From: Tubulanus polymorphus
Lineage: Eukaryota > Nemertea > Palaeonemertea > Tubulaniformes > Tubulanidae
DNA: 64,000 nucleotides
Direction of reading: 5' to 3'
Assembly (NCBI RefSeq): GCF_964204645.1
Contig: NC_134027.1
Coordinates: 24,478,485-24,542,484, forward strand
Positions 323-26,659 of the stretch are shown in pieces. Below the pieces are notes generated by a model. The model did not search any database. It was not told the origin of the DNA and saw only the letters and a list, made by a program, of their open reading frames with translations. The translations under genes and the position numbers were made by a program. The first letter of the stretch is position 1. Each line of letters opens with the position of its first letter.

Positions 323-3300
323 CTAATTTGCGGATGTTGCGAGGATACGAAATCAAACTAAGCTCTGGCAATGAAACGCTCTGTAGAACGTTTCATTTCG
401 GTAATGAGACCTGGGTGAGAGATGGCCGCAGGTTGCTGAATTATAGAGAAAAGGTCGTTATCTTCCCAATATACGGCATTCCAGATACCAGAGCATAACA
501 TGAACTGATTATAAAAATTGTTTACGTGCTTCGCAGATATTTACGTACGATTGCCTGCTCAAACTTAAAAGCAAGAAGAACTGGGAAGTAACTGTTACGA
601 GTTTACCCATTTACAAGGCTGAAAGACACCAACAAGAGACATCTTTAACGTTCTATTCACAGCTATCAGCTCGTATGTATAAACTGACGATACACGTTTC
701 ATCTTTTGTCCCAGTCGATAATTAAGGTCAATATTCTTTCAGATTTTGGTCATCTAAACTTGTGTTCAGTTCTTCACCTGAGAGGTTTTTAACAAGTTGA
801 GTGCCAGTTACGAATTAACTCCAGGGTCCCTATGACTATTTGAATCCTTGAAAACTCCATCCAAACCAATAATGTTTGTCAAGGTCCTTGAATATCCTTG
901 AATTTGAGAAAAATGCCCAAAAGTCCTTGAAAAATCCTTGAATCTTGAGAAATTTACAATTACAAAATGTTTAGGTCTTAGACCTGTAGTCATAGGCCAT
1001 ATACACACAGATTCTACCTATATAAATGGTTTATCGAGATACGCAGTACCAATTTAGGAGTAATTTACAGTAATGGGGATATGAAAGTGATAAATACACT
1101 CCTCGAAATTTGAAATTTCCTCCTTGAAAACTCCTTAAAAAGTCCTTGAATTCTAGAATGACTGATCTATAGGGACCCTGTAACTCGTGCAGATTCTTCA
1201 TATTTACAATAAGATATTTTGCACACAGTTCCGGATTAGCTGGCAATATAAACGTATCATTCATTGTACGTATTAACGCACTCGGATGGTAAAAAACATG
1301 TTAATGGGAATTGATCTGCAAACTCCAGACATAAGACATCAAAAACTGTCATCCACATTTCACATGTGTTCAGCACTTCACCTTTCAGGACATTTCTAAT
1401 TGAAAAAAGAACTATAAACATCAGACATTAGGCATTTTATCAGCAAACTTTCAAAATCTGTTCATCCATGCTTCACATGTGTTCATTACTTCATCTGAGA
1501 CATTTTTTAATTGAAAAAGAACTACAAACTATAAACATCCGACAATAGGCATTTTATCAGTACACTTTCAAAAAGTATTCATCCATATTTCACATGTGTT
1601 CAGTACTTCACATGAGACATTTTTAACCGAAAATGAACTAGGAACACCAGACATTAGACATTTTATCATCACATTTTCAATTGAAAATGCGTTGTAAAAA
1701 TTGTTGAGGATTCCTAAGCCCTTTTTTGGGAGAACGAATTTAAAAAGACTGCTAAACTTAACATTTTCACCGTTTGTTCAGAAGGTGGCAACCAGTGGTT
1801 TGAAGCAATCTTGGGATATCCCCTTTAAAAGGAAATTGATTTTCATTCATTTTGGTAAAGGCTTTTACAAAATGTATGAAAATCAAAGGATCGTTTGTGG
1901 CAAGATTTAAAAGAAAGGCTCTTTGTATCTATCTGCAGGTGGTTCTCAACGTATAAAGAGTTCCAAGGATTGGTATACGTGGATCATTTTCAAAAGGCTC
2001 GAGCTCGAAGGTAAAATAACGGTGACGACCAACCTCACGAACGACTACAATCTTCGCAAATTTAAGATCCGTTTATACGACACGGTAAACAACAAATCCG
2101 TTTTTAAGAAAGATGATCTTTTCAGCGTAAGTAAATCTGAAACTCTGTGACAATTGTATCGATATTAAGTTACGTTATTCTTTGAACAAATGTAGCCATT
2201 GATTAAAGTGAACTTTTTTTGAAAAAGTACTCCATTCGCAGCTGAAAGTTACTTGTAATTTGGTCCATTCAATCATCAACGTTTCCGAGATTTATCTAAA
2301 TTACTGTTTCATCACTGTTTCTCTCTGACGATGAGATTTTGTATAATTTCAAAATGCTACAATTGTAAACTTGGTCGTATCACATTCGCTCATCACTCCT
2401 TTGAAACTCTTTCAATTTTGAGAAAAAGGCAATTTGAAATTTAAACTAGACTACGCCTTGATTGAAATTGATACAGTTGGAACCAGGATTCTTTTTGCCC
2501 AATAAGAAATTTACCAAAATAAGATTCTACGTAGGTAGTGTTAGGAAAAAAATTTTCTAACGGAAACCTCTGAATAACCGGTTTACCGAAACAGTACCGA
2601 TATTAAAATAATTTTGAATTGAAAAATTAATTTTGAATTGTTCTTTTCCCCTATGACTCGTTTTAGTCGAATAAGTCAAAAGTAAGTTATTTGCATGTTT
2701 TTTTTTCATATTTCTTTTATCAGAAAAATTTGACTGCGTCTTTTTTCTGCATTTTGCCTTTCAACTTATCTACATTTTATCGAGACTCTTGCATATTATT
2801 AACACATTTCAACCGTTTGTATATAATATGTACATCGTATGCTTCATTCTCTACGTAACTAACAAAACAGACAGCTACACACAATATTTGAGGAATATTT
2901 GTGAAAAACCTACCCTTAACGATTTAAAGTTGTGATCAGATAAATCGTTTAATTACCTGACTCATCTCTTCTTCGAGTACCAATTTGTGTTTTTGATTCA
3001 CTTTAACTAATTATAAATCGTCAACGTAATGATCATCCCGACTTAAGCGACTTAGAGACTTAGATTGTACTTAAGACTGAATACATTGATCATGCCGAAA
3101 ACTATATTTTGAGAAATCGTTTTGAGTAGGTTTTTTATACACATTCCAATTATTCATCTCACTTTCGTTTTTCTCGATGTAGTTCCGCATAAACGAAGCA
3201 CTAAGGATAGAAATCGTTATCACGGAATTTTTTCTAATTTTTTCATTCTAACTGAATATTTTCTAACTGAAAAAATAATAACAGTAAAATCTGCTTGGGT

Positions 3301-6300
3301 CCTATCAGACCGGGTGAAATTCATCGAGAAATTGGCAGCATTTAACGATCATTATATTCAACAAGATGTTGTTGACTTTAAAGGTAGGTTTCGATTGGTC
3401 TCTACCGATTCCGGAATTCTCTACTGGCGCATTCACAGTTTAATGCATAATCTGTAAACCTGATAGAAGTGACCGGTAGAGAGTTCATAATCCAGAATTG
3501 ATATTCCTGAACTGGAATACATCCAATCTAGACCTGCCTTACAAGTAACAAAACGTCTGGATAAGAAATGAAAGATTCAGCGGGGATCAGTTGCCTAATA
3601 GTTGGTTAAAGTTTACCATACCAGTCGATAATTTATTTGGTACCAGTTGAAGCTATGTTGCCACAATGGTAGTTTTAGGGTATTTAGCATGGTCCAAAGC
3701 ACAGATGTCAATGGTAAACTGACTAACGTTCATTACATTTCATTACTTTTTCTGCGGAGTCTTTGTTGTTGATAACAATGATAATGATGGTATCTATTTC
3801 ATCAATAAAGAATTGCTGAAATACAAGAAACACAGAGGATTAGAAAATCGATGATAGGCACCTGAACAGAGCCAATAAAGGCTGTACAATCACTAGTTCA
3901 GGCCCCTTGAAAAGTTTGATAATAGTAAGTAACGTTGATAATGGTAATGATGATAACGATAAAAGTAATGATATTCTTAACCAAGAACTCTGCAACTGGG
4001 TCCAATTGGGCAACTGAGTCCAAAAGTCTTGTTAAATCGGAGCAGGCAGGTTTTACTGTAGCTCTGCATTTGTGCACTTATTTGCTTTCTGGAGATGGTT
4101 CTATAGTTGGTCGTCGGGAACTTTTTATCAGCATTTTTGCCGGTCGCGATGACGATGCTCTTTGCTTTTTTTTAGCATTTCGGACACCGGGCCTGATGTA
4201 TGTAAGCGGAAAATGTAGGATTTCGATTAAACAATTACCGATGTTTTTCAAAAACTGGAAATCGTATTAAATCGTTTTCAATTTGGCCTTGTGTTTGCTC
4301 GGTTCAACTGTCGTTAAGTTTGACTTAATACGAGTCAAACTCAACTCTCAACTGAAGAACTGGAACCAAGTGGAATCAGGGAAAGTTAGAGTTGGCCATG
4401 TCCGATATTCCAGCTTTGAAAATATTTTTGTATCACTATATAAATATATGTCATTTACCATAATTATTATTTTTGGCAGGACGTCATGAATATAACAAAA
4501 GTGTGTAGTGGTAAATACCAGATAATGGTGAGTATCAAGGATCCAGTTCCAGTAGTTTGACCAATGTAAAATTAGTTCATTTCCAAAGTTTTAACTCTTT
4601 AAAACCCTTCTCAGTGCTGACTCATCAATACCTGAAAGTCCTGGAGATCATTTGAAAATTTAGAAAAATTCCACCCCAGCATGTTTGATAAAAGGCACAC
4701 TGCTATAATGTGTTAACACTGCAGTGCGGTGTATCGTTAGTAACTAACGTTTCACGATGTTTGACAAGTGCTGCCATCTTTCAATAGAGGTAAAACTAAT
4801 CGTGAATAACATCAATACGCCGTGATGCAATGTACTCACCAACTGCGTTACCAATTCATACACAGCACTGTGGTGTAGATGCAATAAAAAAGGGTTAAGA
4901 GTCTAATCGCAACCAAGACTTGTAGTACTCCAGTAGAATACGCTTTTTTGGGGAGGGGGGACTAGAATTCTCTGAAGCGACGAACAACGACGGGGGGTCC
5001 TTATCACATGAAATTGTGTGAGAAGATTTTTAACGCGTAGTTATCTGGAATACGCGATTATGAGGCGATTTGCTTTGTTGCAGGTGGGCAGTGCGCTGTA
5101 GCCTATATTGTGATGATATCTGAATGCGCGATTTAATATTTGAACATTTTGTTCTTGAATCACTTGTTTTATTCGACGGATATTTTTTTGACGCCTTATA
5201 AAACGTTACCATTATGAAACCTAAACAATGTTAACCATTCAGCGTCATTTTACAAACGACAACCGTAGATCGATGTGCAAAACGTCACAGGTTTATGTGT
5301 ACACATACAAGATCTTTGGCAAAATATTATTGATAAAGATGTAGAATGGCTCCCTGTGATTATATAATGACCTCTATTTGAACGTCGGAATGTTATATTT
5401 CATTGAATATTTTGAGAAGACGTATTGTAATAGTAAAGGAAGTATGATTATATCAGGAGCGGCAGGCATAAATAGAAATGATAAGTAAAACGGATTATTC
5501 GGTTAAATGGCGGATGTATACACGATTTGGAAGTCTGATATAAAAGTCAGACCCTGACATGGGGATGCTAGTGGAATGACGAAGCTATCTACGATCTGTG
5601 TAGGGCCGGTGTGAATTTCATCAGCGGCTGCTACAAGCGGTCTATATAAAAACGTGTAAACATATAATTTCAATATTCAAATGTTCTAGAAAATATGTTC
5701 GATATTAGGGGTATGCAGGTTTCATGAGATTAGCAATTTATAATAGCATAGCTATCATATACATCCTCCCTCTGCAGGGACTCGAACCTGATGGCATCGC
5801 TACACTCAGCCACGGCACGAACCCCTGCATCAGTAGACCGGGTGCGCAGGTACATGCGCAGCTTTCCGAACGAAAACTGGCGGCACCAATCAGATTGCTC
5901 GTTATATAATCGTTGAGGCAAATTTCAAGGAAGAACTATAAATGGGAAAACCCGGGCTAAAATAAAACGGGATTTCTGATTGGCTAAAAATCACATCATC
6001 TGAACTGCGCATGTATCTGCGCACACGGTCGATTATGGCAGGGTTTCGTGCCGTGGCAATCTCGATGCCATCAGGTTCGAATCCCTGCCGGAGGAGGATG
6101 TGTCATATACGGCTCCGCGTCCACTGATGGCATGTGTATAAGGATATCAATTCAATTCAATACTTTATTGATCCTTATTACATTGAAATTCCGGGATAAA
6201 ATTCCCAGATTCAATAAAGTTACAAATTTTAAAATAAGAAAATACAAAATACAAGTCACTAGGGTAATTCATACAGAATAACATGAATAAGTTATTTAAA

Positions 6301-9300
6301 TGACAATGTCTACTTCCACCCAGACTCAAGTCTAGGATATCGAGTGACAGCCAAACCGGGCCCCGGGACCAGGCCGGCTGGCTACACGATATGCTCAAAG
6401 TCATGATGAAGCAGAAACCAGAAGAGCTCTTTCTTCAACCATGGAGGCAATGACGTTGCAGACCAGCTTAGAGGCAAAAGTGAATCGAAGTCGGTCACAA
6501 GTTGACAATTTTTTTAGAATTAGACCAGTCGAAGACTGTATCATCTACCCAATCGCCAAATCTCATAATTCCCCAAATTTCTTAAAACTTCGATTTCAAT
6601 TATGCAATTCCACATTAGCTTATCCCAGAAATTCTACATTTTTTCGCAGGCGTCAAATAATTTATAAGTTAATTTTCTTGTTTCTTCTTCGTCAGCTTGA
6701 ACCGGATGATCCGTACTGGAACGAACAGGGAAGCTGTTTGTGTAAGACGGAATATGATGTATGCAAAAGATGTACAGTGACCGTAACGCAACCATTTAAA
6801 TTTGACAGCAGTGAGTGAATGTATTTTGTCTAATTTTGGCTGCAGCCTTGAATTGGGGCAGTTTTGAAGTCCGGTAGCGAGCGTCGAGCCAGGAAAGTAT
6901 GAATGAAACGCCGAGGTCTTGTTCAAGTTACTTTCACAGGGAGCAGAAAAATAAATACATACACTAGACTTCGGGGCAATGGGACTTCGAATATCTCACC
7001 GGGTCCTTGACATTTTAGGGCGCCTTCAAAATTTAGGGGAGGGCTCGCCTAGATTCCCTTGGACACTCTAAAACTAAAACTTGCATTCCAGGGTTTCGTG
7101 TCCTGAAAAATTCCGAAAAATTATTTCATACAAGCAGCCATTTCTGGAAAAGAAATTGCACGTATAAAAGTTGTAAATTGTGTTTTCATTTGAACGGATC
7201 GTGCAATCAAGCTTTTTTAGCTCGATTTTTTGACTTGATAATAGATTGTTTACATTTTTGGGGGGGTTTAGAATTGAAGTCGTGCAACAAAGAAGCGACC
7301 ACGCCGAGAACAACGACGACAGCGGCAGCGATCGCAACTAAAAACATACAAACGACACCTACTCGACCTCCGGTGGTACGAACAACGCAACAACCTTCGA
7401 GTTGGTTGACGACCGTCTTAGTTCCGATATCGATCGTCGTCCTTATTGTAGTAATCTTGCTGATCGTGCTGCTGTTCAGGAAATCAAAATGTTCTGTCAT
7501 TTATTATTTCATAAAACCACCGCCTTTTGGTAAGTATCATCTTTCTATAATTACCGTTTACTCAGAAATAATCAGTTTCCCACCGTATTAGAAAATCGGG
7601 AAAACTTTGGGAAAGTTCTTATAGAGATATGGATAGGATTTCCACTAATCTGTACGTACGCCCCTTCGTGATATACGAGATGATTTTTTTTTCATAAGTT
7701 CAACTTATATGTTCGAATTTCGACTTATTATGTCGAAATCCGACTAATCATCTCGAATTTCGAAATAAAAGTAACTCAAAATTCGACATAATAATTTCTA
7801 CGTAACGATAACTTGAATTTTGACGTAATAGTCGAAATTAGACAATAGTCGAAATTCGTCACAATTAACTCGAAATCCAATATAATAAGTCGAATTTCGA
7901 CAATGCGTTTGCCATTTGTGTCATAAAACTAGTGATGTATTGAAGACTTTATCGAAAATAGAATTTACTGATTGAAAAAATATCTATTTTATTCTTGGGA
8001 AATTCAATGATTTCATATGAATGATGCTTTTACATTTCAGCATCAACTGCTTGTCCGTTCCCTCCTGAAATCCGCGAACAAATTGAAGGTAAATTCTTCA
8101 CATTGACTAAGTTTACAAAAGTGATGCGGCCGATAAGCAAAAACAAGGCATCATTATATTTTTAGCATTAACCTCATTTTCTTATAATTTAACGCAGGTA
8201 ATTCGGGTCTGGTGGCGTCGAAATTGAAAATTTTCGTTCTCTACGAATTCGGCCGCGATGAAGCACACCACGAAATCGTGTTGCTGTTCTGCCGTCTGCT
8301 GAGCGTGCACGGCGACGTCAACGTTACGATGGCCGACAACGCGACGCTCGCGATCAACAAACGCGGCAACATTACGCAGTGGATCGTGAACGAGTTCGCG
8401 TCGGCCGACCGAATCGTGATCATCAACTCGCGACACTCGCGCGACTGTTACAATCGCTACTGTAGCGGCGCCGGCGCCGCGGAGCAGACGGATCGCTGTA
8501 ACTCGAGCACGCGCACCTTGTTCGCGACCGCGACCGACCTGCTCGAGAAAGAATACGAGATCAACAAGTCGAAGTTGGTTAACGCGTATTTCGCGTACGA
8601 CGACCCGGCGACGTGTTTGATACCGAAGTTCCGAACGGGTGTCGAACACCGGCTGATGTTCGAGCTGGCGAAGTTCTATTTGCACCTACACGGCCGCGAA
8701 GTCGTCGACGACGATTGGCTGGTGAACAACGTCAGGAAGTTCAACTTCGACGAGTTCACCGATTTCCCCGAAGGGCGGCAGCTCGCGCAGCGCATGGCTG
8801 CTAAATATGACAATAAAGACAGCGGGTTCTCGCTTGACAGCGGAATCAACCCGCGCCTGTTCCCCGACGTTGGAATGTTTTCCCGTCAATCATCCGTTCC
8901 ACCTGACTTGCCATTGACGGTTCTTTCAGGTAAAAAGTTCAAGCTCTTTTATGCTTTTTCAGTCACAGTTTTAATTCCCAGTAATCGCTAACTGGTGTCA
9001 GTTGTTAGATTGTTTAAAGAACCAACATAAGCTTTTAACTGATCATCTCAAGTTGTTAGATCGGCTCTAGAACCAAATTGAGGTTAGACTGGTCTTAAGT
9101 TGTTAGATCAGTTATAGAACCAAAATGGGCTGGTCTTCAGTTGTTAGATTGGTTTTAGAACCAAAATGGGCTTAGACTGGTCTTCAGTTATAGAACCGAA
9201 ATGGGCTTAGACTGGTCTTCAGTGGTTACATCGGTTATAGAACTAAATTGAGCTTAGACTGGTCTTAAGTTGTTAGATTAAATCTAACAACTTAAGACCA

Positions 9301-9687
9301 GTCTAAGCTCCAGATTGGTTATAGAACCGAAATTGGCTTATACTGGTCTTAGGTAGTTAGTTTTATGATAGAACCCAAATGAGCTTAGACTGGTCTAAAC
9401 GTCCAGTGCCACAAGTTGATATTTGTTTGTGAAATTTAAGATACATGTACATCGGATATGAACTACTGTTAGTTCTAATTCTTGACTTGAATTGAGACAT
9501 GATGTATTTACTGATAGATTCCTGTGTCAGTTCCACGGCTGTGAGTCTACATTTTCTCAATTTTACAGATTCGATTCATCACGAAGATAACGAGAGCCTA
9601 CATAATGATTCACCGGAATGCACTGATCTACTTTCGCTTGTTTACGACACCGAACCGAAACTACCGATGAACGGAATTAGTGTATGA
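323..9687 (+). CDS. IL-17 receptor-like protein, copy 1 (5' end outside window)
   Basis: Single-pass cytokine receptor with an intracellular SEFIR domain, expected at the plasma membrane, where IL-17 receptors recruit Act1/TRAF-type adaptors (family knowledge). Exons read here: 323-414, 537-672, 1939-2126, 4480-4527, 6696-6810, 7092-7529, 8041-8088, 8198-8929 and 9569-9687 (stop TGA). All junctions are GT-AG and phase-compatible, giving 637 visible residues. Exons 323-6810 encode the two-part IL-17R ectodomain with NxS/T sites. Exon 7092-7529 holds a cysteine-rich stretch (WKRNCTYKSC), a Thr-rich stalk and a membrane helix (VPISIVVLIVVILLIVLLF) followed by RKSK. The SEFIR domain fills exon 8198-8929. 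Signal-peptide exons must lie left of the window, because the intact second copy has three further 5' exons. Compared with copy 2, one ectodomain Cys is replaced by Phe (7226-7228). Indels in exons 323-414 and 537-672 are multiples of three, which supports coding. Function is inferred from domains only. Confidence 0.88.
780..1260. repeat. degenerate TCCTTGAA-rich repeat in intron
   Basis: About ten short units around TCCTTGAAAA occur in the intron between exons 537-672 and 1939-2126 of copy 1. They are absent at the matching place in copy 2 and so appear to have been inserted after duplication. Confidence 0.5.
1300..1690. repeat. roughly 110-bp dispersed repeat, about 4 units
   Basis: Each unit contains TTCACATGTGTTCAGTACTT, a GAGACATTTTTAATTG box and ACATTAGACATTTTATCA. 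The same family recurs at 19880-20030, 30200-30450, 53070-53930 and 60480-60690, in both orientations. Confidence 0.6.
2127..4479 (+). other. intron of IL-17R-like copy 1
   Basis: A 2.35-kb intron with long blocks nearly identical to copy 2 (for example 2640-2900 and 21360-21620). No exon is supported here. A tempting frame at 3285-3383 fails the phase and copy comparison. Confidence 0.6.
4603..4894 (-). mobile_element. piggyBac-like MITE, degraded copy
   Basis: Reverse-orientation member of the TTAA-flanked family. It has the internal boxes GCAGTGCGGTGTATCGTTAG and TGCTGCCATCTTTCAATAGA, with a TTAA at 4599-4602 and 4895-4898. The ends are mutated. The matching site in copy 2 keeps only the first 45 bp or so (23290-23338). 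Confidence 0.6.
5761..6101. mobile_element. foldback element with tRNA-type B box in its arms
   Basis: Inverted arms start ACATCCTCC at 5761-5799 and end GGAGGATGT at 6063-6101. Each arm contains the Pol III B-box match GGTTCGAATCC or its complement. TCATATAC occurs within two bases of both ends, a possible target-site duplication. It lies in an intron of copy 1 and is absent from copy 2. Confidence 0.6.
6120..6640. other. intron sequence, possible retroelement 3' tail
   Basis: An AT-rich block (TCAATTCAATACTTTATTG) is followed by a GC-rich block ending in CATGGAGGCAATGACGTTGC. It has no counterpart in copy 2 and no coding potential that I recognise. Confidence 0.3.
7685..7910. repeat. GTCGAAATTCGAC-type palindromic short repeats
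   Basis: About ten degenerate units, each centred on TCGAAATTCGACATAATA, lie in the intron after the membrane exon of copy 1. The equivalent intron of copy 2 carries its own array at 24395-24630. Confidence 0.6.
8198..8929 (+). other. SEFIR-domain exon of IL-17R-like copy 1
   Basis: This 732-bp exon encodes the cytoplasmic SEFIR (TIR-like) domain. It starts with KLKIFVLYEFGRDEAHHE (strand A and box 1), then the conserved Trp in GNITQWIVNEFASADRIVI and later AYFAYDDPATCLIPKF. It is far more GC- and CpG-rich than the flanking introns and begins after TTAACGCAG. Its 3' donor TCAG|GTAAAA leaves phase 1, which fits the last exon at 9569 and also the candidate alternative exon at 9955. SEFIR domains bind adaptors through homotypic contacts (family knowledge). 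Confidence 0.9.
8995..9400. repeat. roughly 48-bp satellite-like repeat, about 8 units
   Basis: Units read TTGTTAGATTGGTTATAGAA then CCAAAATGAGCTTAGACTGG. They start just after the SEFIR donor and include a perfect palindrome at 9250-9310 where the repeat reverses direction. Confidence 0.7.
9250..9310. repeat. perfect 61-bp palindrome
   Basis: Two 30-bp arms (9250-9279 and 9281-9310) flank a single A. The left arm begins GAGCTTAGACTGGTCTTAAG. It is formed by head-to-head units of the roughly 48-bp repeat. Confidence 0.85.
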
Positions 9688-9954
9688 ACTGCTGAGATCT
9701 TTTAGAATTTTCTTTGTATTAGAACTTTATATGTGTCGTTGTTAACAGAGCTGCAAAACGTTCCTGATTTTCAGTATTTTCCTTCTATTTTGTCCAGATT
9801 TAATTTGTTCGATGCGTACAGATAGATACGTATACGTGAAGGATCTTACTTTTCCGTCTAAGTGTTGATTACTGATCAGTTTGAACATTTTATTTCATAT
9901 TTCAATGGAATCTTGCTGAAAAATATACGATATGTTACTGATAGTATTTTTCAG

Positions 9955-10043
9955 AAGTTGGCAGCCCTGCGATAAACAGAAATGTGAAAGTTGTCTTAGA
10001 GGGTCTTGAGATATTTGAATTGAAAACCCACTCACCCGCATAG
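9955..10043 (+). other. candidate alternative last exon, IL-17R-like copy 1
   Basis: After a pyrimidine-rich TATTTTTCAG acceptor the frame reads VGSPAINRNVKVVLEGLEIF and then a TAG stop. The exon starts with two bases completing a codon, so it joins in frame to the phase-1 donor of the SEFIR exon (8929) and would replace the standard tail. The same frame is open in copy 2. No transcript evidence is available, so it may be only conserved 3' UTR. Confidence 0.35.
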
Positions 10044-11230
10044 CTGTATAGCATACGGCAGTGGTTTTTTTCTGCTGGCGTTTATATGCTCATCCTCCAC
10101 GTACTGGTAATCCACATTTACGATGACAAAAACAGCGCCAGGTTCGTTTCCTTTTACTTCATTTCGAGGAAGCGTGAACATAGCAAAAATGATTGTCTCA
10201 GTTTCGATCAAATGAGTCGATAGAGCCTGATTTTATTAAAAAAAAAGTTCCCTCCCGCGTCTGTTCTATGAGTCTCAGGTTGAGCTTTTTATTTCAACTT
10301 TTTTATTTAAAAAAAGTAATAAAAATAAAATTCGCCCGCCCTCGTACTTTCCAGAAAAAAAATCTAATGAGAAACTAGGGTATTTCTTTGTGTGGCCTTA
10401 ATGCAACTTCTATTTTGAGTTGTATTTTTGTTTAAAGCACTGTGTCTGTTTTCCACGATGGCAGTAACAGTTTTTTTGGTAAATTTTTTTGTAGTTTTCT
10501 TGATAAAAAACTTCGTTCTCTAATTTTCACTTTCATTAACCCAGATTAGACATTACGTGTACAGTAATCAACCGTAGCTAAAAGGTGGGAAAAGTTGTAA
10601 CGAACAATGTAAGAATTTTGGCTGGGGAAACATTTTCTCCGACTTGTTACTTACAGCGCGCAAAAGGCAATCGTGCTTCGTAAATGAAAATGTTTGTGGT
10701 TTGAAAAATATGAATGTTATCTATTCCATTAAATGGACTAGATAAAATTCATATATTTCAAACCACATCTAAATTTGTGTGAGGCAAAAATGTCTCACGA
10801 TGATCATATCGCCATTCTGTGAGGGAGGAAAGTGACAGAGTCTCGTGATGCAATCATCTCGTAGCTTCTATTTACAGAATATGTTTGTACTTAAATCATG
10901 TCGTGTTCGTTCTTATATTAAAATGTATTTAAAAAAAGTATATTTAAATGAAAAAAAGTAAATGAAAAGAGGCAAGCAACCATGACACTTCCGACTTTCC
11001 GTCTGAAGGTCATAGTATTAACATCCGATTTAATCCAGAGAGAAAATTTTTAAATGAAAATCTATGAAATAATGAAGATTACATACATTGGTAAATCTAT
11101 TTATTTTCTATAACGCTGATTTTAATTGTGATCGGAAATTGTTTATCAATAAAAGAGAGTTTTGTAAACGTTGCGTTCATAGCGATTTTTAAGCCTTTCA
11201 GGAAGTTAGGCCTGCTCCAGAGTCAGGATT
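10044..11230. other. intergenic, downstream of IL-17R-like copy 1
   Basis: AT-rich with no open frame of note. From about 10890 it matches 27790 onward, the distal part of the segmental duplication. Confidence 0.5.
10695..10767. repeat. short foldback
   Basis: Imperfect inverted arms of about 29 bp, TGTGGTTTGAAAAATATGAA and its complement, surround a loop of about 15 bp. The origin is unclear. Confidence 0.55.
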
Positions 11231-11387
11231 TCGATCAAGGCTAATTGACTCTGAATCCAGTTCCACAGTTGTGTGGGTAATTTGACTCTGAATCCAGTTC
11301 CACAGTTTTGTGGGTTTAATTTGACTCTGATCCAGTTCCACAGTTGTGGCTTTAATTCGACTCTAAATCCAGTTCCACAGTTGTGTC
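11230..11387 (+). repeat. 39-bp minisatellite, about 4 units
   Basis: Units of TTTGACTCTGAATCCAGTTC CACAGTTGTGTGGG type. The array is interrupted by a MITE and resumes at 11693-11880 in degenerate form. Confidence 0.7.
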
Positions 11388-11692
11388 TTTCAGTGCTTCT
11401 ACACCGCAGTGCGGTGTATCAATCAGTGATAGATTTTGCTAGTACACCCGCACTGCAGTATATTGATTATTAGTAATATTATTACATAATTAGTAATTAG
11501 TAATTATGTCTCTTGAAAAATGGCAGCACCTGTCAAACATTGTGAAATATTGGTAACTAACGATACACGGCGCAGCGGTAGTAGAGGCACTGTAGTGGTA
11601 TTCCCGTTATTCAATACACTAGGGTGGAATTTTTAAAAATTTTCAAATTATCTCCAGCACTATAGGGTATTAATTAGTCAGCACCGACAGGG
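11388..11692 (+). mobile_element. piggyBac-like MITE inserted in the 39-bp array
   Basis: Starts CTTTCAGTGCTTCTACACCG and ends CAGCACCGACAGGG before TTAA at 11693-11696. The 39-bp unit itself contains TTAA, which explains the target. The left end has lost its TTAA and first bases. Confidence 0.65.
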
Positions 11693-12144
11693 TTAATTTG
11701 ACTCTGAAACAAGTTCCACAGTTGTGTGGGTTCAAGTTTCTCTGGATCCAGTTCCACTGTTTCGCGGGTTTAATGTGGCTCTGAACTTAAGATCAGTAGG
11801 CGTACAGTTGTGCTGGTTCACATTCGACTCCGGATCCAGTTCAACGTTTGTAGGTTTTTTATGTTGACTTTGAACTCTTTCACAGAAGGTCAGTTAAAAT
11901 TTCTGACACGAAACTGTATCATCAATAATAAAAAAGAAACGACTGGCACAAGATGATTTATTCCAAAAGCTGAAATTAGAAAATCCAGAAGCAAAGTGAA
12001 AGAAACTTTATAGCGACTGAAAAGAAATTGATAATAGAATTTATAGTATTTTCACCTTGAAAAAGTAAAAACTGGATAAAATGCATGGATATGCGAGTTG
12101 GGGGGGGGGGGGGGGAGTAAAACCTGCATGTCGAATCAGTAAAC

Positions 12145-12270
12145 ATGGAGATTAAGCCAGCGGATACTACGTACTTCGAAAGTAAACTGATTGTCGACGA
12201 GTATAATCGGTCGACAATCAGGATTGTAGACATTGCCGACGAGTACAATCGGTCGACAATCGGGATTGTC
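12145..12270. repeat. duplicated small GTCGAC palindrome
   Basis: ATTGTCGACGAGTATAATCG GTCGACAAT folds on itself and is followed by a second similar unit about 60 bp later. It lies at the right-hand end of the segmental duplication in copy 1. Confidence 0.5.
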
Positions 12271-12279
12271 TATTTCAAA

Positions 12280-13560: not shown

Positions 13561-13567
13561 TCCCAAA

Positions 13568-14510: not shown

Positions 14511-14983
14511 CTCCCACAGTTCCTATTGAAAACAACCTCATTCACCAGAGTGTAACAAAAACACTCAAATTGTCAGTGAATTGTCAGTTGGGAACACATC
14601 CAATGTCACCAATGAAACTTGAAAAAAATCAATTTTATTGCGTGATATTGAAATCTTACTGTAGACTTGGGCCCAAAGCATTAAATTGATGAAGAAATGA
14701 AATCAATTCTTAGTTAAAACTTGGAGAATTGAAAACTGACGCCAGAGTTAAGCCGGGGTGGATGGAAAGAAGATGAAACTGTAACTCTAAGGTTTGATTC
14801 ATTTCTGAAATTTTGGCTTATAAGATTAGAAAGTTATGAGGAAACGGATCAAATGAAATGAAATTTTCTGCGAGAAAAAAACTTAAAAAATTTACCAACT
14901 GAATATAACCCGTCTCTTTACGACTCTGCTAAAAGATTACTATTTCGATTTAGATTGTGATCAAGAATTTCTTTATGGTTTAA

Positions 14984-15273
14984 CCCTTTCAATGCGTCTA
15001 CACTGCAGTGCGGTGTATAAATCAGTGTTGGATTTTGCTAGTACACCGCACTGCAATATATTGATATTGGAATTAGTAATGAGTAATTATGTCACTTAAA
15101 AGATGGCAGCACCTGTCAATCATAGTGAAATATAAGTTACTAGCGATACACTGCGCCAGGGAGTAGACACACTATAGTGTTATCCCGTTATTCAACACAC
15201 TAGGGTAGAATTTGTCAAAATTTTCAAATTATCTCCGGCACTATAGGGTATTAATTAGTCAGCACTGAATGGG
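14984..15273 (+). mobile_element. piggyBac-like MITE
   Basis: Flanked by TTAA at 14980-14983 and 15274-15277. Ends are CCCTTTCAATGCG and GCACTGAATGGG. It has the internal boxes ACACTGCAGTGCGGTGT and ATGGCAGCACCTGTC shared with the copies at 49254 and 43999. Confidence 0.8.
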
Positions 15274-15426
15274 TTAAACCTTGTGAAACCATAATGTAAC
15301 TTTCTATGCCTATGGTGAAACTGATCGGAGGGTTTTTAAAAGATGGAAGAATTTTGACCTTTGAAAATAAAAGGATCGACGAGAAGATTACAACATATTT
15401 CTTAATACCTTGGAATGCAACGCTAC

Positions 15427-15620
15427 ATAATAAGATAAAAACCCACTATCTACAGAATAAAAGAATTTAAAAACAAGAATTTATTTATATCATCGTCATG
15501 TGACGATGATCTCTAGGGTGAGATTGAAACGTCGTGTATTCTATATATTTTAGATTGAATAAATAAATTCTTGTTTTTAAATTCTTCTAATCTGTAGATA
15601 GTGGCTTTTTATCTTATTAT
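15427..15620. mobile_element. foldback element, about 60-bp arms
   Basis: Arms ATAATAAGATAAAAACCCAC and its near complement at 15565-15620 enclose a loop holding a small TCATCGTCATGTGACGATGA palindrome. No coding capacity. Confidence 0.65.
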
Positions 15621-16207
15621 CCGTTCACCACGTTTGAGTGTGGTTATCGTTCTAACGCTACATAGGCCTAAATCGGAAAATTATTTTCTGGCAGAAAAAA
15701 ATTGAATGAGCAGGAAATACAAATGTCAGTACGAAAATTGATTTCTTTTGCGGAAAGTATTCTCTAATCCTCTGGAAAAACGAGTTAATAAAAATAAGCA
15801 ATGCACATGGCCAGCAGTACCGAATTCCTTATTTGGCGAAAAAAGGGGCGGAGACTTAAGTTTTTGCTTCTGCTCAGACGAGACCGTACCGATCCGCGGC
15901 GCGCTGCCTTCGGCGACCGGCGTCCATCTGATAGGCCTAAACAATTGGATCAGTATCAGACGGTCACATCCGCTGTAATATCATAGGCCTACTGCCTGGA
16001 TACAACAAGAACTAACAGTTATAACGAACAGATTTTCAGGGAAGGTTCACCCAAATATTTATCATATCAAATGTTTATAGTTGTTTATTTCTTATATCTA
16101 AATATAGAGTTGAAATTCTGATGTAGGCGTCGTCGTGCTGAGAGATGGCTATAGATGATGCGTAGATTGCGTTGATCTTGTGACGGTTCGATGGATATTT
16201 TCGAGAA

Positions 16208-19200
16208 ATGTATTTTCTGACTGCGAGGAGCTGGTTGGTATCTGCTGCATTGGTGGTGGTACAAATAATCGTAAACGGCATCGTCCTCAGTGGCGCGTCA
16301 TCGTCGCCGTATGTCCAAGAACAGACGTGCGGCCACAAATACACGGACGTATTAGACTGTTCAAAAGACTCACTGGTAAGTTTTACTACTGTAAAACCCC
16401 TCTAGTGAATACCTACATCGGGACCGAGCAAATAGATGATTCACCCTCAAGAATTAGCTACAGCGGCCGACCGAGTGGCTTTGAAATGGATTTCAACAAA
16501 AGTCGAACCAAAATGTTATACTGGGTCATTCATTTATTACGTACACATTAGGGGAGGGGGAGGGGTCAGTGCAATTGCGTACTGTAATGCTTAATGTATA
16601 TGAAAAAATGGCCGATTTTGCGTACAGAGGGGAAGGGGGGTTAAAAATTTCAAATTTTATGCATACGTAATAAATGACTGATCCCTACCGCAACTTGTTA
16701 TAGGCCCCCTTTTCTTCTTCATGATGATTCTAGCACTTGCAGTATGAAAGCTTTCTCGCGTAAAAACTGCCCGTAAATAAAGTGATATTATTTGAATGAT
16801 GAAAGCGGGACGATATGATTTACGGCGAATGCGATAAATGCCGTTTTCTTATCGATGAACTCGGTTCTTTTAAAGTCACGTTTTCGCGAGAGTGTTGGCA
16901 TAAATCCGGATTAACCCGATACGGATTAAGCGGATCCGACTGTACAGAGAATTCAAAGAACATATGTAAGACCAGTCTCAGATTTTAGATCATCTTTCTA
17001 CTGAAGATAGACTGGTTGAGACTTAAATCTCAAAATCTCAAGGCTGGTTGGTTGGCTAGTTGTTAGATCGGCTATAGAACTAGGAGGTGGTTGGAACCAG
17101 TCCCCGAGTCTTAATTGTAAACTGAGTGCTCGGCTGTTTTGTCTGTATATATCATCCTAGTCATTTATCTTGTCTTTCAGCCTCACGTACAGTGTACCGT
17201 TATACAGGACAGTAACTGTGAGTAATGATTATTATTATATGGCATTTTAAACTAGGTATGCGCGTATTCCATTCGGCATATCAATGACAGAGTTCGGGTT
17301 TTTAGTGCGGTTAATTATTACGCTATTAACGGTAGACTTTGTTGATATGTGCGTAACATAAAAACCCACCGGTTCTGATGATGATATCCAAGTGACATAA
17401 AATGACTATTAGTGACGCATAAATCAACGAGTACTGTTGCTCTTCTGCTCAAATACCTAAATGCAGAATCAGATAAAAAATACTGGTCCTTGTTGTGTAG
17501 TTGTCGACATATTTTGTTACCACAATCAATGGCGTAGTCGTTGCTCATGACATGTTTCATGATTGTTGTGAGTTTCAAGGTCATCGGTTGTGGTATATGG
17601 TCACCAGCCAAATAACTTTTGCTTGGTATTGTACCTAAACATATTTTGTTACCACGATCAATTGCAAAATTTTAGCTGGTGACATTGTCTATGATTATGA
17701 TGGTTCATTGTCTATGATTATGATGGTTCATTGGTTTTTGTATATGTTCACCAGGGGCAGTGTTTTCAATAAGAAATTAACAAGCCAGGTCCCTTTGAAA
17801 ATCAGGAGGGTCCCATAATATGTCACAGTCCCGGAAATGAAAGCTGGTTTGAAAAAACAGGCGGGTCCTTTACACACGACGGACGGGTCTGGGACCTGGC
17901 TCTTATTGAAAACACTGAGGGGGCGTTGAATATTGATATTTTCTGATTGTTGAGCATTTTTAAACCACTTACCAAGCGGGCGTGGTGTCCCTGGACCCCC
18001 CGTATCCCTAGTTTGTAAGCCGGAATGAATGTTTTATATGGAAACAGGGCAATAAAACATTATTCCTGTTATCAATTCTTTCATCTTTTTTATATTTAAA
18101 GTCTGTAAAAATGGTACTCTGTATACTGATGGCAAGGGTGGTTGGCCTCTTAAACCGAGGGAATTGAGCCTGTTACCGTATCAACACGAGTATAAATATG
18201 AAGGCGTTGTCTATTTATTATCAACTGTTATTATTCAGTGGAAGCCTTCATTTAATGGTAAGTTATCAATATACGGCTAAAAGTTGCAAGACAATGTTAA
18301 CCCACTTGGGGCATAGCTGCAGAGGGCTGTTGGGTCCACTGTTCGCACTTAGGTTATGGACGGAATCCAGTTATTTTGGGAAGTTTTGAAGATGCTTCAA
18401 TGGATTGTTTTGATATTTGGTTTATACATGTATCTACCCCGGATATATCTTCAGCCCAAAAATTGGCCTGATCATATGCAAATTGTTCACCAATACCTGC
18501 ACTTTATAGCCCACTTGGCCGGAGGCCATTCGTGCTTACGCTTTACCCCTGTGTCAGGTTTCTTGTGAAAATTCCAGACCAGATTTTTGACCAATCGTCA
18601 TCAAATTCGGATATATTGTGTATGACCCAAACATCTGGGATACTTGTGTTCAATACTTGTTGTAATTGGATCCAAGATGGCCGATTGGCGGCCCTCTTGG
18701 TTTCTGAAATGCACTATTTGGCTATCAACTGATATAATATTGATATGATATTCCATGCATAGCTTTCATTTTTTCATATGAAGATGTGAAGTGGAATGGT
18801 CTATCTATCATATGACCAAACTAGGTCATGATATCATCCAATATGGCAGACTGGCAGCCATCTCGGTTTCTGAAAATGCACGTTTTGAAAGGATATGACT
18901 GATATATACCATGTAGAGCTTTTCATTTTTTATATGGGGGTATTATGGCTGGCTGGCCGCCATCTTTGATTCTGAAATTATATATTTTGGTTATCAACTA
19001 GAGAATCTTCCAGTTAGAGCTATCATATTTCAAAATTCAACTGAAGTGACCTATTTCATGACCAAACTAGGTCATGATGTCATCCAAAATTGCCGAATGG
19101 ATTCTGAAACTATACATTTTGGTCATCAACTCGAAACGTTTCGCAGATAAAGTTTTGATATTTCATATAAATTTGTCAACTTGCAAGACCTGTCAACCTG

Positions 19201-22200
19201 TCAACTAAGCTAGGATGGCCGAATGGCTGACTGCCTTCACTTAAGCACCTGGCCAAGCAGGCTTAGATGCATTCGTATCTTGTTCCAAATTTTCTGCATG
19301 AGTGTTGAGTTTCAAGGTCATCTGTGTTCTTATGCATGTGCACCAGGGGGCTTTGAATTTTGAAACTGTCAGATTGTCAAACATTCACCGAATGGGCACA
19401 GTGTCACAGGACCCCGAGTTCAAATACCCAATTATAGAAGATCTGATATTTTTTCTAAAATTCCAGCTAATTTGCGGATGTTGCGAGGATACGAAATCAA
19501 ACTACACTCTGACAGTCTTGATAAAACGCTCTGTAGAACGTTTCATTTCGGTAATGAGACCTGGGTGAGAGATGGCCGCGGGTTGCTGAATTATAGAGAA
19601 AAGGTCGTTATCTTCCCAATATATGGCATTCCAGACGCCAGAGCATTATTATGGTCTGATTATAAAATTGTTTATGTACTTTGCAGATATTTACGTACGA
19701 TTGCTTGCATAAACTTGATAGCGGGTTGAACTGGAAAGTTACTGTTACGAGTTTACCCATTTACAAGGAGGCTCCAAGACATGAACAGGAGACATCTTTA
19801 ACGTTCCTTTCACTACCATCAGCTGGTATGTTTAAACTGACATTACATGTTTCATCTTTTGACCCAGTTGATACTATTATATTTTATCAGTACTCTTTAA
19901 AAACTGTTCATTTGCACTTCACATGCGGTCAGGACTTCACCTGAGACATTTCTAATTGAAAATGAACTAAGAACACCAGACATTAGACATTTTATCATCG
20001 CATTTTTGGTTAATAATGCGTAGTAAAAATTTTTGAAGATTCCTTAATTTAAAGTTTTAACCCTTTCTTTCGAAGAACCAATTTTAAAAGACTGCTAAAC
20101 TTAACATTTTCACCGTTTGTTCAGAAGGTGGCAACCAGTGGTTTGAAGCAATTTAATGAAATACTCTTTAAAAGGAAATTGATTTTCATTCATTTTGTAT
20201 GAGGCTTTTACAAAATGAATGAAAATCAGTGGATCTTTTGTGGCAAGATTTAAAAGAAAGGCTTTTTGTATCTATCTGCAGGTGGTTCTCAAAGTATAAA
20301 GAGTTCCAGTCAGTGGTATACGTGGATCATTTTCAAAAGGCTCGAGCTCGAAGGTAAAATAACGGTGACGACCAACCTCACGAACGACTACAATCTTCGC
20401 AAATTTAAGATCCGTTTATACGACACGGTAAACAACGAATCCGTTTTTAAGAAAGATGATCTTTTCAGCGTAAGTAAATCTGAAACTCTGTGACAATTGT
20501 ATCGATATTTAGTTACGTTATTCTTTGAAAAAAATCTAGCCTTTGACTAAGTGAACTTTTGTTGGAAAGATACTTGTAACTTGGTCCAGTGTTGCAGTTC
20601 TCGGAAATTTGACATTCGGGCTAATAGTAGACTGAAGCATATCTCATGTCGACAAAGATCCAGTTGGATTGTAAGCAGTGAAGTCAGCAAATTTCAACAT
20701 CAGGAACGCTATGAAATGAGTGCATTACGTATTGAGAGTGAGAGAAATGAGAGTATTTCGTCACAAAATGCTCAGTCAACAAACCATGCGATTCTCCAAT
20801 GATTGTGTCGTAGTCGACCTGAGTGCGCTTCAGATCAAGAGATAAACAAATTGGCAATCAGCGATCACGTGCTGCTGCTGCTCTTACCTCCTGAACTAGA
20901 CTTGAGATTTTAAATTGTCGAGTCGAGCTTCACCCGAACTACCGTGAAACTGAGTCCTTCATAACGAACAATCCCACAATATGATGATGTCTTTAGTTTA
21001 TCGATCATCAGTGGTTCCGAGATTTATCTAAATCACTGTTTCTCTGACGATGGGATTTTGTACAATCTCACAACTGTTAGAATCGTAAACTTGATGGTAT
21101 CACATTCGCTCGTCAGTTATGCGATTGTTCATTATGTAATGGTTTCAAAGGTGCCTGAAACTCCATTGAAACTCTCAGTTTTGAAAAATATGCAATTTCG
21201 AAATTTAAAGTAGACTGAGCCTTTATTCTTTTTGCCCAATTAGACATTTACCAAATTAAGATTTTAGGTAGTGTTAAGGGTGAACATTTTCTAACAAAAC
21301 CTCAGAATAACGGGTTTACCGAAAAACAGTACCGATGTTAAAATATTTTTGAATTGAAAAATTAATTTTGAATTGTTCTTTTCCCCTATGACTCCTTTTT
21401 AGTCGAATAAGTCAAAAGTAAGTTATTTGCATGTTTTTTAATATTTCTCTTATCAGAAAAATTTGACTGCGTCATTTTTCTGCATTTTGCCTTTCAACTT
21501 ATCTACATTTTATCGAGACTCTTGCATATTATTAACACATTTCAACCGTTTGTATATAATATGTACATCGTATGCTTCATTCTCTACGTAACTAACAAAA
21601 CAGACAGCTACACACAATATTTAAGGAATATTTGTAAAAAACCTACTCTAGTCGATTCAAAGTTGTGATCAGATAACTCGTTAAATTACCTAACTCATCT
21701 CTTCTTTTGTACCGATTTGTACTTTTGATTCGATTTAACTGATTAACTAAACGTTGATTCTTGACTTTATTTTCGAGAAATCGTTTTGAGTAGGTTTTTT
21801 ATACACATTCCAATTATTCGTCTCACCTTCATTTTTTTGATGTAGTTCCGCATAAACTAAGCACTATGGATAGAAATCATTATCATGGAATTTCAACCAA
21901 ATATTTTTTAACTGAAAAAAAATAGCAGTAAAATCTGCTTGGATCCTATCAGACCGGGTGAAATTCTTTGAGAAATTGGCAGCATTTAAAGATCACTACA
22001 ATGTATATTCAACAAGCAGTTGCTGACTTTAAAGGTAGGTTTCGATTGGTCTCTACCATTTCTGGAATTCTCTACTGGCGCATTCATTACATCCACAATA
22101 TAATGCTATACTTGTTCTGGATTGGCATAATCTGTAAACCTCTGATAGAAGCGGCCGGTAGAGGTTTCATCATCCGGAACTGGACTGGATTACAATCAAT

Positions 22201-25200
22201 CTAGACCTGCCTTACATTGGACAAGTAACAAAAAGTCTGGATTAGAAATAATAGATTCAGCAGGGACCAGTTGCGTAATACCAGTAGTTGGTAATACGTA
22301 GTTGGTAGTTGATAATTTACATGGTACCAGTCTGCTATGGTATTTTTAGGTATTCATCTTGGTCCAGGTGCACAGTTGTTGGTAAACTGACTATAAAGTC
22401 CGTTACTTCTAATTGCATTTCATTACTTTTTCTGCGGAGTCTAATAGTGTTGATAACAATGACAATGATGGTATCTATTTCATCAATTAAGAAATGCTGA
22501 AATACAAGAAACACAAGAAGATTAGAAAATTGATGATAGGCACCTGAACAGAGCCAATAAAGGCTCTACAATCACTAGGACGTTCAGGCCCCTTGAAAGG
22601 TTTTAATGATAAGTAACGTTGATAATGGTAATGATGATAATGATAATAGTAATGATATTCTTAACCAAGAACTCTGCAACTGGGTCCAACTATTGAGCAA
22701 CTGAGTCCTAAAACCTTGTTAAAATGGATTAAGCAGATTTTACTGTAGCTCTGCATTTGTGCACTTATTTGCTTTCTGGAGATGGTTCTATAGTTGGTCG
22801 TCGGTAACTTTTTATCAGCATTTTTGCCGGTCGCGATGATGATGCTGTTTGCTTTTTAGGATTTAGGGCACCGGAAAATCTGTAATGTATCCTAATAAAT
22901 GTAGGATTTCGATGAAACGATTACCGATGTTTTTCAAAAATCTGAGATGATATTAAATCGTTTTCAATTTGGCCTCGTGTTTGCTCGGGTTCAACAGTCG
23001 TTAGTTAAGTTTGACTTAATACGAGTCAAACTCAACTCTCAACTGAAGAACTGGAACCAAGTGGAATCAGGGAAAGTTAGAGTTGGCCATGTCCGATATT
23101 CCAGCTTTGAAAATATTTTTGTATCACTATATGAATATGTGTAATTAACTACAATTTTTGTTTTTGTCAGGACGTCTTCAATATAACCAAAGTTTGTAGT
23201 GGTAATTACAAGATAATGGTGAGTATTAAGGATCCAGTTCCAGTAGTTTGACTAATGTAAAATTGGTTCATTTTCTAAGTTTTACTTCTTTAAAACCCTT
23301 TCGGTGCTGACTCATCCATATCTGAAAGTGCTGGAGATCTTTGTTCTTGAATCACTTGTTTTATTCAACCAATATTTTTTTCTTCTTCGTCAGCTTGAAC
23401 CGGTTGATCCGTACTGGAACGAACAGGGAAGCTGTTTGTGTAAGACGGAACGTTATACATGCCAAAGATGTTTAGTGACCGAGACGAAACCGTTTAAATT
23501 TGACAGCAGTGAGTGAATGTATTTTGTCTAATTTTGGCTGCAGCCTTGAATTGGGGCAGCTTTTCGATCGACAGTTTTGAAGTCCGGTAGCGAGAGTCGA
23601 GCCAGGAAAGTATGAATGAAACGCCGAGGTCTTGTTCAAGTTACTTTCACAGGGAGGAGAAAAATAAATACATACACTAGACTTCGGGGCAGTGGGACTT
23701 AGAATATCTCACCGGGTCCTTGACATTTTAGGGCGCCTTCAAAATTTAGGGGAGGGGTTGCCTAGATTCCCTTGGATATTCTTAAAACTTGTATTTCAGA
23801 GTTTCGTTTGCTAAATATTCCCATAGAAATATTTCATAAAAGCATTTTCTGGAAAAGAAATTGCACGTATAAAAATTGTAAATCGTGTTTTTATTTGAAC
23901 GGATCATGCGATCAAACTTTTTTAGCTCGATGCTTTGACTTGATGATAGAGTGTTTACGTTTTTTATGGGGGGTTTTAGAATTGAAGTCGTGCAACAAAA
24001 AAGCGTCCACGACGGTGGCAGCGATCGCAACGACAACTGCAAACTCACAAATGACACCTACTCGACATCCGGCGGTACGAACAACGCAACAACCTGGAAT
24101 CACTTCGAGTTGGTTGACGACCGTCTTAGTTCCGATAGCGATCGTCGTCCTTGTTGTGGTAACCTTGCTGATCGTGCTGCTGTTAATAAGAAAATCAAAA
24201 TGTAAAGCCATTTATTATTTCTTAAACCCGCCTGCTCCTCGTAAGTATCATCTTTCTCTGATTACTGTTTACTCAGAAATAATGAGGTTCCCACCGTACT
24301 AAAAAATCCGGAAAACTCTGGGAAATATTTCTTCTGGCGATATCGATTTCCACTAATCAATGGAAGCCCCTTGATGTCATACGAGATATTATATATGTTA
24401 TTATTATTATTATGCATAATATGTCTAATTCCGACTTATTTTTTCAAATTTCGACATATTATGTCGAAATCAGACATAATAGTTTGAATTTCAACATGAA
24501 AATGACCCAAAATTTGTCTTAATTAATTCGAAATCCAACGTAATAAGTCAAAATTCGACATGAAAAGGAAACTCGAAATTCGACATAATAAAGTCGAATT
24601 TCGACTTAATTATGTCGAATTTCGGCAATGTGTTTGCTATTTGTGAGGCATAAACTAGTGATTTATTGAAGACCTTTCAAAAATACAATTTACTGATTGA
24701 AAAAATATTCATTTTATTCTTTAAAAAATTCCATGATTTCATATGAATGATGTTTTAACATTTCAGCACCAACTCCTGGTACTTGTCCGATCCCTCCTGA
24801 TCCTGAACAAATTGAAGGTAAATTCTTCACATTGACTAAGTTTACAAAAGTTATGCGGCCAATTAGCAAAAACAAGGTATCATTATACTTTAGCCTTAAC
24901 CTCATTTTCTTAACGCAGGCGATTCCAGTGCGACGAAAATTTTCGTTCTCTACGAATTCGGCCGCGACGAAGAACACCACGAAATCGTGTTGCTGTTCTG
25001 CCGTCTGCTGAGCGTGCACGGCGACGTCAAGGTTACGATGGCCGACAACGCGACGCTCGCGATCAACAAACGCGGCAACATCACGCAGTGGATCGTGAAC
25101 GAGTTCGCGTCGGCCGACCGAATCGTGATCATCAACTCGCGACACTCGCGCGACTGTTACAATCGCTACTGTAGCGGCGCCGGCGCGGCGGAGCAAACGG

Positions 25201-26207
25201 ATCGCTGTAACTCGAGCACGCGCACCTTGTTCGCGACCGCGATCGACCTGCTCGAGAAAGAATACGAGATCAACAAGTCGAAGTTGGTGAACGCGTATTT
25301 CGCGTACGACGACCCGGCGACCTGTTTGATACCGAAGTTCCGAACGGGCGTCGAACACCTGCTGATGTTCGATCTGGAGAAGTTCTATTTGCACCTACAC
25401 GGCCGCAATGTCCTCGACGACGATTGGCTGGTAAACAACGTCAGGAAGTTCAACTGCGACGAGTTCACCGATTTCCCCGAAGGGCTGCAGCTCGCGCAGC
25501 GCATCGCTGCTAAATACGACAAAAAAGACAGCGGTTTCTCGCTTGACAGCGGAATCAACCCGCGCCTGTTCCCCGACGTTGGAATGTTTTCCCGTCAATC
25601 ATCCGTTCAACCTGACTTGCCATTGGCGGTTCTTCCAGGTAAAAAGTTCAAGCTCTTTTACGCTTTTTCAGTCACAGTTTTAATTCCCAGTAATCGCTAA
25701 CTGGTGTCAGTTGTTAGATTGTTTAAAGAACCAAAATAAGCTTTAAACTGATCTTAAGTTATTAGATTGGTTATAGAACCATAATTAGCTGAGACTGGTA
25801 TAAGTTGTTAGTTTTATTAAACAACCAAAATGAGTTTAAACTGTTCTTAAGTTGTTATATTGGTTATAGAACCATAATGTGCTTGGACTGGTCTTAAATT
25901 GTTCGATTGCTTAGGTGGTTGGATTGGTTATAGAACAAAATGAGCTTAGACTATAGCCTTTAAGTTGCTAGATTGCTTAGACTGTTCCGAACGTCCAGCG
26001 CCACAATTAGATATTTTTTTGGAAATTCAAGATTCATGCACATGTAGGAAATGAACTTCTGATAGTTCAAATCTTCTGAATTTTACAGATTCGATTGATC
26101 ACGAATGCAACACGAGCCTACATGATGATTCATCGGAATGCATCGATCTACTTTCGCTTGTTTACGACACCGAACCGAAACTACCGATGAACGGAATTAG
26201 TGTATGA
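16208..26207 (+). CDS. IL-17 receptor-like protein, copy 2 (complete, 759 aa)
   Basis: Complete single-pass IL-17 receptor-like gene. Exons: 16208-16375, 17181-17217, 18102-18257, 19467-19564, 19687-19825, 20282-20469, 23171-23218, 23394-23508, 23800-24240, 24767-24817, 24919-25638 and 26089-26207. The start is the first ATG after an in-frame TGA at 16181-16183 and opens a hydrophobic signal peptide (residues 1 to about 31). Residues 32-153 form the first ectodomain module (Cys pairs, WPLKP, WKPSF, then LCRTFHFGNETW). Residues 154-317 continue with WKVTVTSLP, then a second fibronectin-like module ending in a Cys-rich segment (CLCKTERYTCQRC). Then come a Cys-rich membrane-proximal part (318-382), a Thr-rich stalk, a membrane helix (about 424-446) with RKSK stop-transfer residues, and SEFIR (about 487-642; Trp538 in ITQWIVNEF). 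The C-tail ends PKLPMNGISV. Every junction keeps phase. It is the downstream member of a tandem pair. Ligand and adaptor are unknown. Confidence 0.9.
18400..19140. repeat. degenerate tandem repeat, about 150-200 bp units
   Basis: Three to four units each contain a variant of CCAAACTAGGTCATGATATC, a GATGGCCG/GGCAGACTGGC box and TTTCTGAAA. They lie in intron 3 of copy 2. The left window edge begins inside the matching part of copy 1. Confidence 0.5.
20470..23170 (+). other. intron of IL-17R-like copy 2
   Basis: A 2.7-kb intron that is largely a diverged copy of 2127-4479, with some unique sequence at 20540-20990. No exon is supported. Confidence 0.55.
23290..23338 (-). mobile_element. piggyBac-like MITE stub
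   Basis: Only the terminal 45-50 bp remain (AACCCTTTCGGTGCTGACTC), broken at GGAGATC. Copy 1 keeps the whole element at 4603-4894, so roughly 500 bp were lost here after duplication. Confidence 0.6.
24395..24630. repeat. GTCGAAATTCGAC-type palindromic short repeats
   Basis: Counterpart of 7685-7910. The units are less regular and their order differs, so the array has turned over since duplication. Confidence 0.6.
24919..25638 (+). other. SEFIR-domain exon of IL-17R-like copy 2
   Basis: This 720-bp exon is the counterpart of 8198-8929 and lies in the same frame and phase. Over the central 300 bp I count about five differences, several silent. By contrast, the ectodomain exons 23394-23508 and 23800-24240 differ at many residues and in length. 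The exon lacks the short GLVASKL-type lead of copy 1 and starts GDSSATKIFVLYEFG. The conserved Trp and the DRIVIINS strand are intact, so both copies should fold as SEFIR domains. Confidence 0.9.
25690..25990. repeat. roughly 48-bp satellite-like repeat, about 6 units
   Basis: Same family and same position, just after the SEFIR donor, as 8995-9400, but with fewer units and no large palindrome. Confidence 0.65.
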
Positions 26208-26655: not shown

Positions 26656-26659
26656 AAAC

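Follow-up and report, generated by a model that had tools for sequence, protein, structure and literature searches.

In the mammalian TLR1/TLR6 pair of innate-immune receptors, gene conversion limits the divergence of the C-terminal region, including most of the TIR domain (PMC2077338). Among invertebrates, small sets of SEFIR-bearing IL-17 receptors have been described, with six IL-17 receptor isoforms in the mussel (PMC8353272) and two IL-17 receptors in the sea urchin, where no Act1 was found (PMC5457136). In primates, positive selection has been reported on both IL-17 ligands and their receptors (PMC13105070).

Here, we describe a tandem pair of intact IL-17 receptor genes in a window of 64,000 bp (C3:24478485-24542484) of a 267.8-Mb animal genome. 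Like TLR1 and TLR6, they are innate-immune receptor paralogues in tandem whose signalling domains are conserved and whose ectodomains have diverged more; however, whereas conversion explains the conserved part in TLR1/TLR6, the SEFIR exon here has ordinary silent divergence. The genome resembles those of the mussel and sea urchin in having a small SEFIR receptor set, but its three SEFIR matches, all in genes resembling membrane receptors, consist of this young tandem pair and one unlinked gene. We consider it probable, at roughly 0.85, that the pair arose by one tandem duplication and that the SEFIR domains stayed alike through protein-level purifying selection, with silent changes accumulating at a like average rate throughout.

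Structure of the duplicated locus

Both genes lie on the forward strand and comprise 12 exons each. The two gene models were built by hand from splice sites and reading frame, and domain matches support exons 6, 8 and 11. Exon phases and splice sites match between the copies, the borders are of the GT-AG type, and the products of 771 (copy A) and 772 (copy B) amino acids contain no internal stops. Positions are counted from the first base of the window, negative values lying upstream of it. Base 323, where the original prediction had copy A begin, is the start of exon 4: the gene itself starts ~6 kb upstream of the window, with exons 1-3 at -6029..-5862, -3849..-3813 and -887..-732. These are followed by exon 4 (323-453), which has an open frame and belongs to ectodomain D1, ectodomain exon 5 (537-672), exon 6 with the start of the Ig_ILCR1 domain (1939-2126), exon 7 (4480-4527) and exon 8 with the Cys-rich end of that domain (6696-6810). 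Exon 9 (7092-7529) holds a Cys-rich segment, possibly coding, up to ~7271, a Thr-rich stalk and a predicted transmembrane helix. Finally, exon 10 (8041-8088) is juxtamembrane, exon 11 (8198-8929) carries the SEFIR core and the start of the tail, and exon 12 (9569-9687) carries the cytoplasmic tail and the stop codon.

Copy B spans 16208-26207 and comprises exon 1 with the start codon and signal peptide (16208-16375), exon 2 (17181-17217), ectodomain exons 3 (18102-18257), 4 (19467-19603) and 5 (19687-19825), exon 6 with the start of Ig_ILCR1 (20282-20469), exon 7 (23171-23218), the Cys-rich exon 8 (23394-23508), exon 9 with the Cys-rich segment, stalk and predicted transmembrane helix (23800-24240), the juxtamembrane exon 10 (24767-24817), exon 11 with the SEFIR core and the start of the tail (24919-25638) and exon 12 with the tail and stop codon (26089-26207). 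The six exons that the original prediction had named, exons 8, 9 and 11 of each copy, all exist with GT-AG borders.

A blastn chain revealed collinear homology, including introns and flanks, between about -6187..12046 (1-12046 within the window) and 15996..28936, both in forward orientation. Besides the gene, the unit takes in flanking DNA, ~160-210 bp on the 5' side and ~2 kb on the 3' side. Judging from this alignment, the whole gene with its introns appears to have been copied by one tandem segmental duplication, with ~10% neutral divergence between the copies. Since the homology gives out ~160-210 bp ahead of the start codons, the promoters past that point differ. Two intact and similar copies might also result from an assembly artefact in which two haplotypes of one gene were set in tandem, but the neutral divergence of ~10%, the large differences in intron length (e.g. 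2168 vs 175 bp for intron 7) and the unique DNA between the copies, within one 27.8-Mb contig, make this extremely improbable. A whole-genome search with the protein found no third copy of the pair; the same search found the unlinked SEFIR receptor at C3:8.94 Mb, with 29% identity.

A 225-bp stretch that precedes the window by ~9.3 kb is 95% identical to window positions 27110-27333; lying upstream of copy A and downstream of copy B, the two stretches are out of register with the duplication and are probably a dispersed repeat. A minisatellite with a unit of ~39 bp occurs on both strands at 11242-11386, 28185-28686, 37479-37931 and 40243-40452; these sites include the 3' ends of the two duplicated units. 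The window further contains three pieces of aquaporin genes (MIP, PF00230) at 31487-32143 (-), 33750-34400 (+) and 38448-39074 (-), the first two of which form an inverted duplicate with 88% DNA identity.

Domain content and the IL-17 system of the genome

In both copies, SEFIR (PF08357) scored 36-38 bits (37.5 in copy A and 36.3 in copy B) against a curated cut-off of 23, and Ig_ILCR1 (PF23608; fnIII/Ig-like D2) reached 41-43 bits, its cut-off being 27. The D1 region matched ILCR1_N at 15.5 bits and IL17R_fnIII_D1 at 17.6 bits, both under the cut-off. Between the ectodomain and SEFIR, the exon 9 translation contains a plain hydrophobic stretch, VLVPISIVVLIVVILLIVLLF, recognised by eye only. 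An AlphaFold model of the SEFIR exon, made from two sequences only, had a mean pLDDT of 44 and was too poor to use, giving no Foldseek match below 1e-3, and a sequence search of the PDB returned no match. On their domain matches, both copies are assigned to the IL-17 receptor genes of the ILCR/IL-17R type, as candidates for IL-17 binding and signalling. They share with ILCR-type receptors (PF23608 and PF08357) a signal peptide, a fnIII/Ig-like ectodomain with Ig_ILCR1, a single predicted transmembrane segment and a cytoplasmic SEFIR with a tail, and differ from them in a D1 that matches known models only below cut-off and in a possible additional Cys-rich segment before the stalk.

This additional segment, the first 59 codons of exon 9 (7092 to ~7271), showed no codon-position bias, with 8, 10 and 8 changes at the three positions. 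Copy A has an in-frame alternative acceptor at ~7272, with the candidate counterpart in copy B at ~23981, homologous exons elsewhere in the genome begin at the matching point, and the corresponding exon of the third receptor opens with KSCDG, which aligns to LKSCNK just past the 59-codon stretch. The frame is nevertheless open in both copies and the indels are in frame. The first ~59 codons may be intron, in which case part of the Cys-rich divergence would be intronic.

Across the whole genome we found four IL-17-domain matches and detected no Act1/CIKS-like SEFIR adaptor, in a search that may miss weak matches. Immediately upstream of the gene for the third SEFIR receptor, at L005:70-1676 (C3:8931069-8932675), an IL-17R-like Ig_ILCR1 ectodomain (48 bits) continues into a hydrophobic segment and then a short tail that terminates in a stop. 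It apparently lacks SEFIR and may be a gene fragment or a receptor of the decoy-like type.

Silent divergence of the SEFIR exon

The SEFIR exons are nearly identical in DNA, as the original prediction had noticed: 34 of 720 aligned bases differ (4.7%; identity 95.3%), compared with 14.6% in the stalk/TM exon (exon 9; identity 85.4%) and 11.3% in exon 8 (identity 88.7%). The Cys-rich exons are indeed more divergent, and the stalk differs in length between the copies. Several ectodomain exons nevertheless equal or surpass the SEFIR exon in identity (97% in exon 1, 100% in exon 2, 96% in exon 4 and 97% in exon 6), so that the split is not simply one between the ectodomain and the signalling half.

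Nei-Gojobori counts gave silent differences at 13.5/204 sites in ectodomain exons 1-8 (pS 0.066), 13.5/161 sites in the SEFIR exon (pS 0.084) and 7/95 sites in the SEFIR core (7.4%), while introns differed at 603/5937 sites (10.2%). The SEFIR exon did not differ from the ectodomain (Fisher p=0.56) or from the introns (p=0.60), and no comparison of silent divergence among SEFIR, ectodomain and introns was significant (p 0.15-1.0). Fourfold sites, with 6/110 differences in the ectodomain and 8/99 in the SEFIR exon, agreed with these counts. Because the GC3 of the SEFIR exon is near 0.8, we complemented the counts with a GY94 codon model (F3x4 frequencies). By maximum likelihood, the dS of the SEFIR core (0.115) matched the intron divergence (0.11), and that of the ectodomain was lower (0.060). 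SEFIR is, if anything, silently more diverged than the ectodomain. The silent sites, which had been counted as part of the contrast, therefore show no significant one, and equal silent divergence, the outcome that the original prediction had named as its refutation, is what we found for SEFIR against both ectodomain and introns. In the stalk/TM region, silent divergence (0.17) exceeded that of the ectodomain (p=0.02).

These results bear directly on the proposal that gene conversion homogenised the SEFIR half while the ectodomains diverged. The 95% DNA identity of the exon and the TLR1/TLR6 precedent (PMC2077338) would fit it, as would a marginal low-divergence tract at 8832-9024, which extends from the 3' part of the SEFIR exon into intron 11 (1/105 sites, p=0.043). 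However, the lowering of silent divergence in the signalling region that characterises a TLR1/TLR6-type pair is absent, both by pS (0.084 vs 0.066 and 0.102) and by dS (0.115 vs 0.060). Furthermore, a recent event that would have homogenised the SEFIR exon to a silent divergence of <=3% was rejected (p=0.001), and the cytoplasmic tail beyond the core diverges freely. Conversion of the signalling half, already contradicted by the silent sites, is thus very improbable. GC3 was dropped as a mark of conversion, as the SEFIR exon of the unlinked third receptor (L005:5872-6591) is also GC3-rich, at 0.63 compared with 0.76 in the pair (8198-8929 and 24919-25638); other exons mostly have values of 0.2-0.5.

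Replacement changes and constraint on the SEFIR core

The SEFIR core carries only three replacement differences in 328 sites, and its omega of 0.07 (codon ML) is well below 1 (likelihood-ratio test, p=1e-4). Replacement differed sharply between the ectodomain and the core (p=4e-7), and also between the core and the remainder of the same exon (p=0.001). The latter contrast indicates that the sharp border tracks the SEFIR core, rather than the membrane or a gene half. Since the constraint on the signalling half acts at the protein level, its near-identity needs no homogenisation of the DNA.

Each of the ten exonic indels has a length divisible by three, compared with 36/168 in introns, and none of the 37 Cys, Trp and Pro residues of the ectodomain has changed (Fisher p=0.002, for a residue set picked after the counts were seen). 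The intact reading frames, in-frame indels and conserved framework residues indicate that both copies have stayed functional genes. With this framework held, a mean omega near or above 1 outside the core could reflect some positive selection, a pattern that two sequences cannot tell from relaxed constraint.

The original prediction had offered, as its second option, selection for different ligands on a shared intracellular module. The module is borne out by the constraint on the SEFIR core. Diversifying selection of the ectodomains for different IL-17 ligands would be in keeping with the ectodomain omega of 1.5 (1.9 in exons 3-6), with replacements that are clustered (p=0.008) and spare Cys, Trp and Pro, with the four IL-17-domain matches as possible ligands, and with the positive selection reported in primates (PMC13105070). 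However, the ectodomain omega cannot be distinguished from 1 (p=0.2), no segment lies significantly above 1 (p 0.1-0.2), and regions that bind no ligand are equally free to change, with an omega of 1.0 in the stalk/TM and juxtamembrane exons and 1.4 in the cytoplasmic tail and exon 12. The freedom of the tail argues against a purely ligand-driven reading, and relaxed constraint after duplication fits as well. We therefore regard ligand selection as a tentative and rather unlikely explanation.

Clumped divergence within the unit

Neutral divergence is clumped along the unit, with a dispersion of 3.1 compared with 0.9 in permutations. A single clock consequently misfits some segments, and some conversion or local constraint must have acted somewhere in the unit, which counts against our preferred reading, as do the excess of silent divergence in the stalk/TM region and the marginal tract at the 3' end of the SEFIR exon. 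We scanned fourfold and noncoding sites only against 300 permutations, as pooling twofold with fourfold sites gave exons a spurious appearance of conservation. The scan identified five low-divergence tracts of ~120-500 sites each, with 0-4% divergence compared with 9% overall, each beyond all 300 permutations. In copy A coordinates, they lie at -4068..-3565 (spanning exon 2 and reaching into introns 1 and 2), -114..483 (spanning exon 4, from intron 3 into intron 4), 2612-2884 (intron 6; 4/270 sites), 4310-4429 (intron 6; 0/120 sites) and 6819-7043 (intron 8; 4/225 sites). The SEFIR exon lies outside all five. As the intron 8 tract sits between two divergent Cys-rich exons, any conversion did not follow the split between ectodomain and signalling half.

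These tracts may reflect short-range conversion or constraint on intronic DNA, two causes that a comparison of two sequences does not tell apart. Short conversion events elsewhere in the unit (introns 1-2 and exon 2, intron 3 and exon 4, intron 6 and intron 8) and outside SEFIR would account for the depth of the tracts, and the two that were searched genome-wide, 2612-2884 and 6819-7043, are present only in the pair. On the other hand, constrained regulatory DNA in introns or an uneven mutation rate would look alike, and exon 4, inside one tract, has five substitutions and a 6-bp indel. We place such events at a little under even odds. A stronger version, with stretches of intron and of the ectodomain half homogenised by repeated short conversion, the SEFIR exon left unconverted (the reverse of TLR1/TLR6) and the core fixed by protein-level selection alone, appears improbable.

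Discussion

One tandem duplication followed by purifying selection on the signalling core would explain the locus as follows. A tandem segmental duplication would have copied a complete 12-exon IL-17 receptor gene, and neutral changes would then have reached ~10%, with introns, ectodomain and SEFIR exon diverging at much the same pace on average. Strong purifying selection would have kept the SEFIR core nearly fixed, presumably because both receptors must engage one common intracellular SEFIR partner, and the ectodomain, stalk, transmembrane segment and tail would have changed at a near neutral rate. It may be that ligand affinity, choice of partner or expression already differs between the copies.

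The pair is thus a young IL-17 receptor duplication in tandem, of an ordinary kind, whose signalling core is constrained. It offers a clean worked case of how near-identical signalling exons in tandem immune receptors mimic gene conversion when silent sites and introns point to purifying selection. Being young and intact, and belonging to a genome whose IL-17 system is small, the pair can be used to study early receptor divergence.
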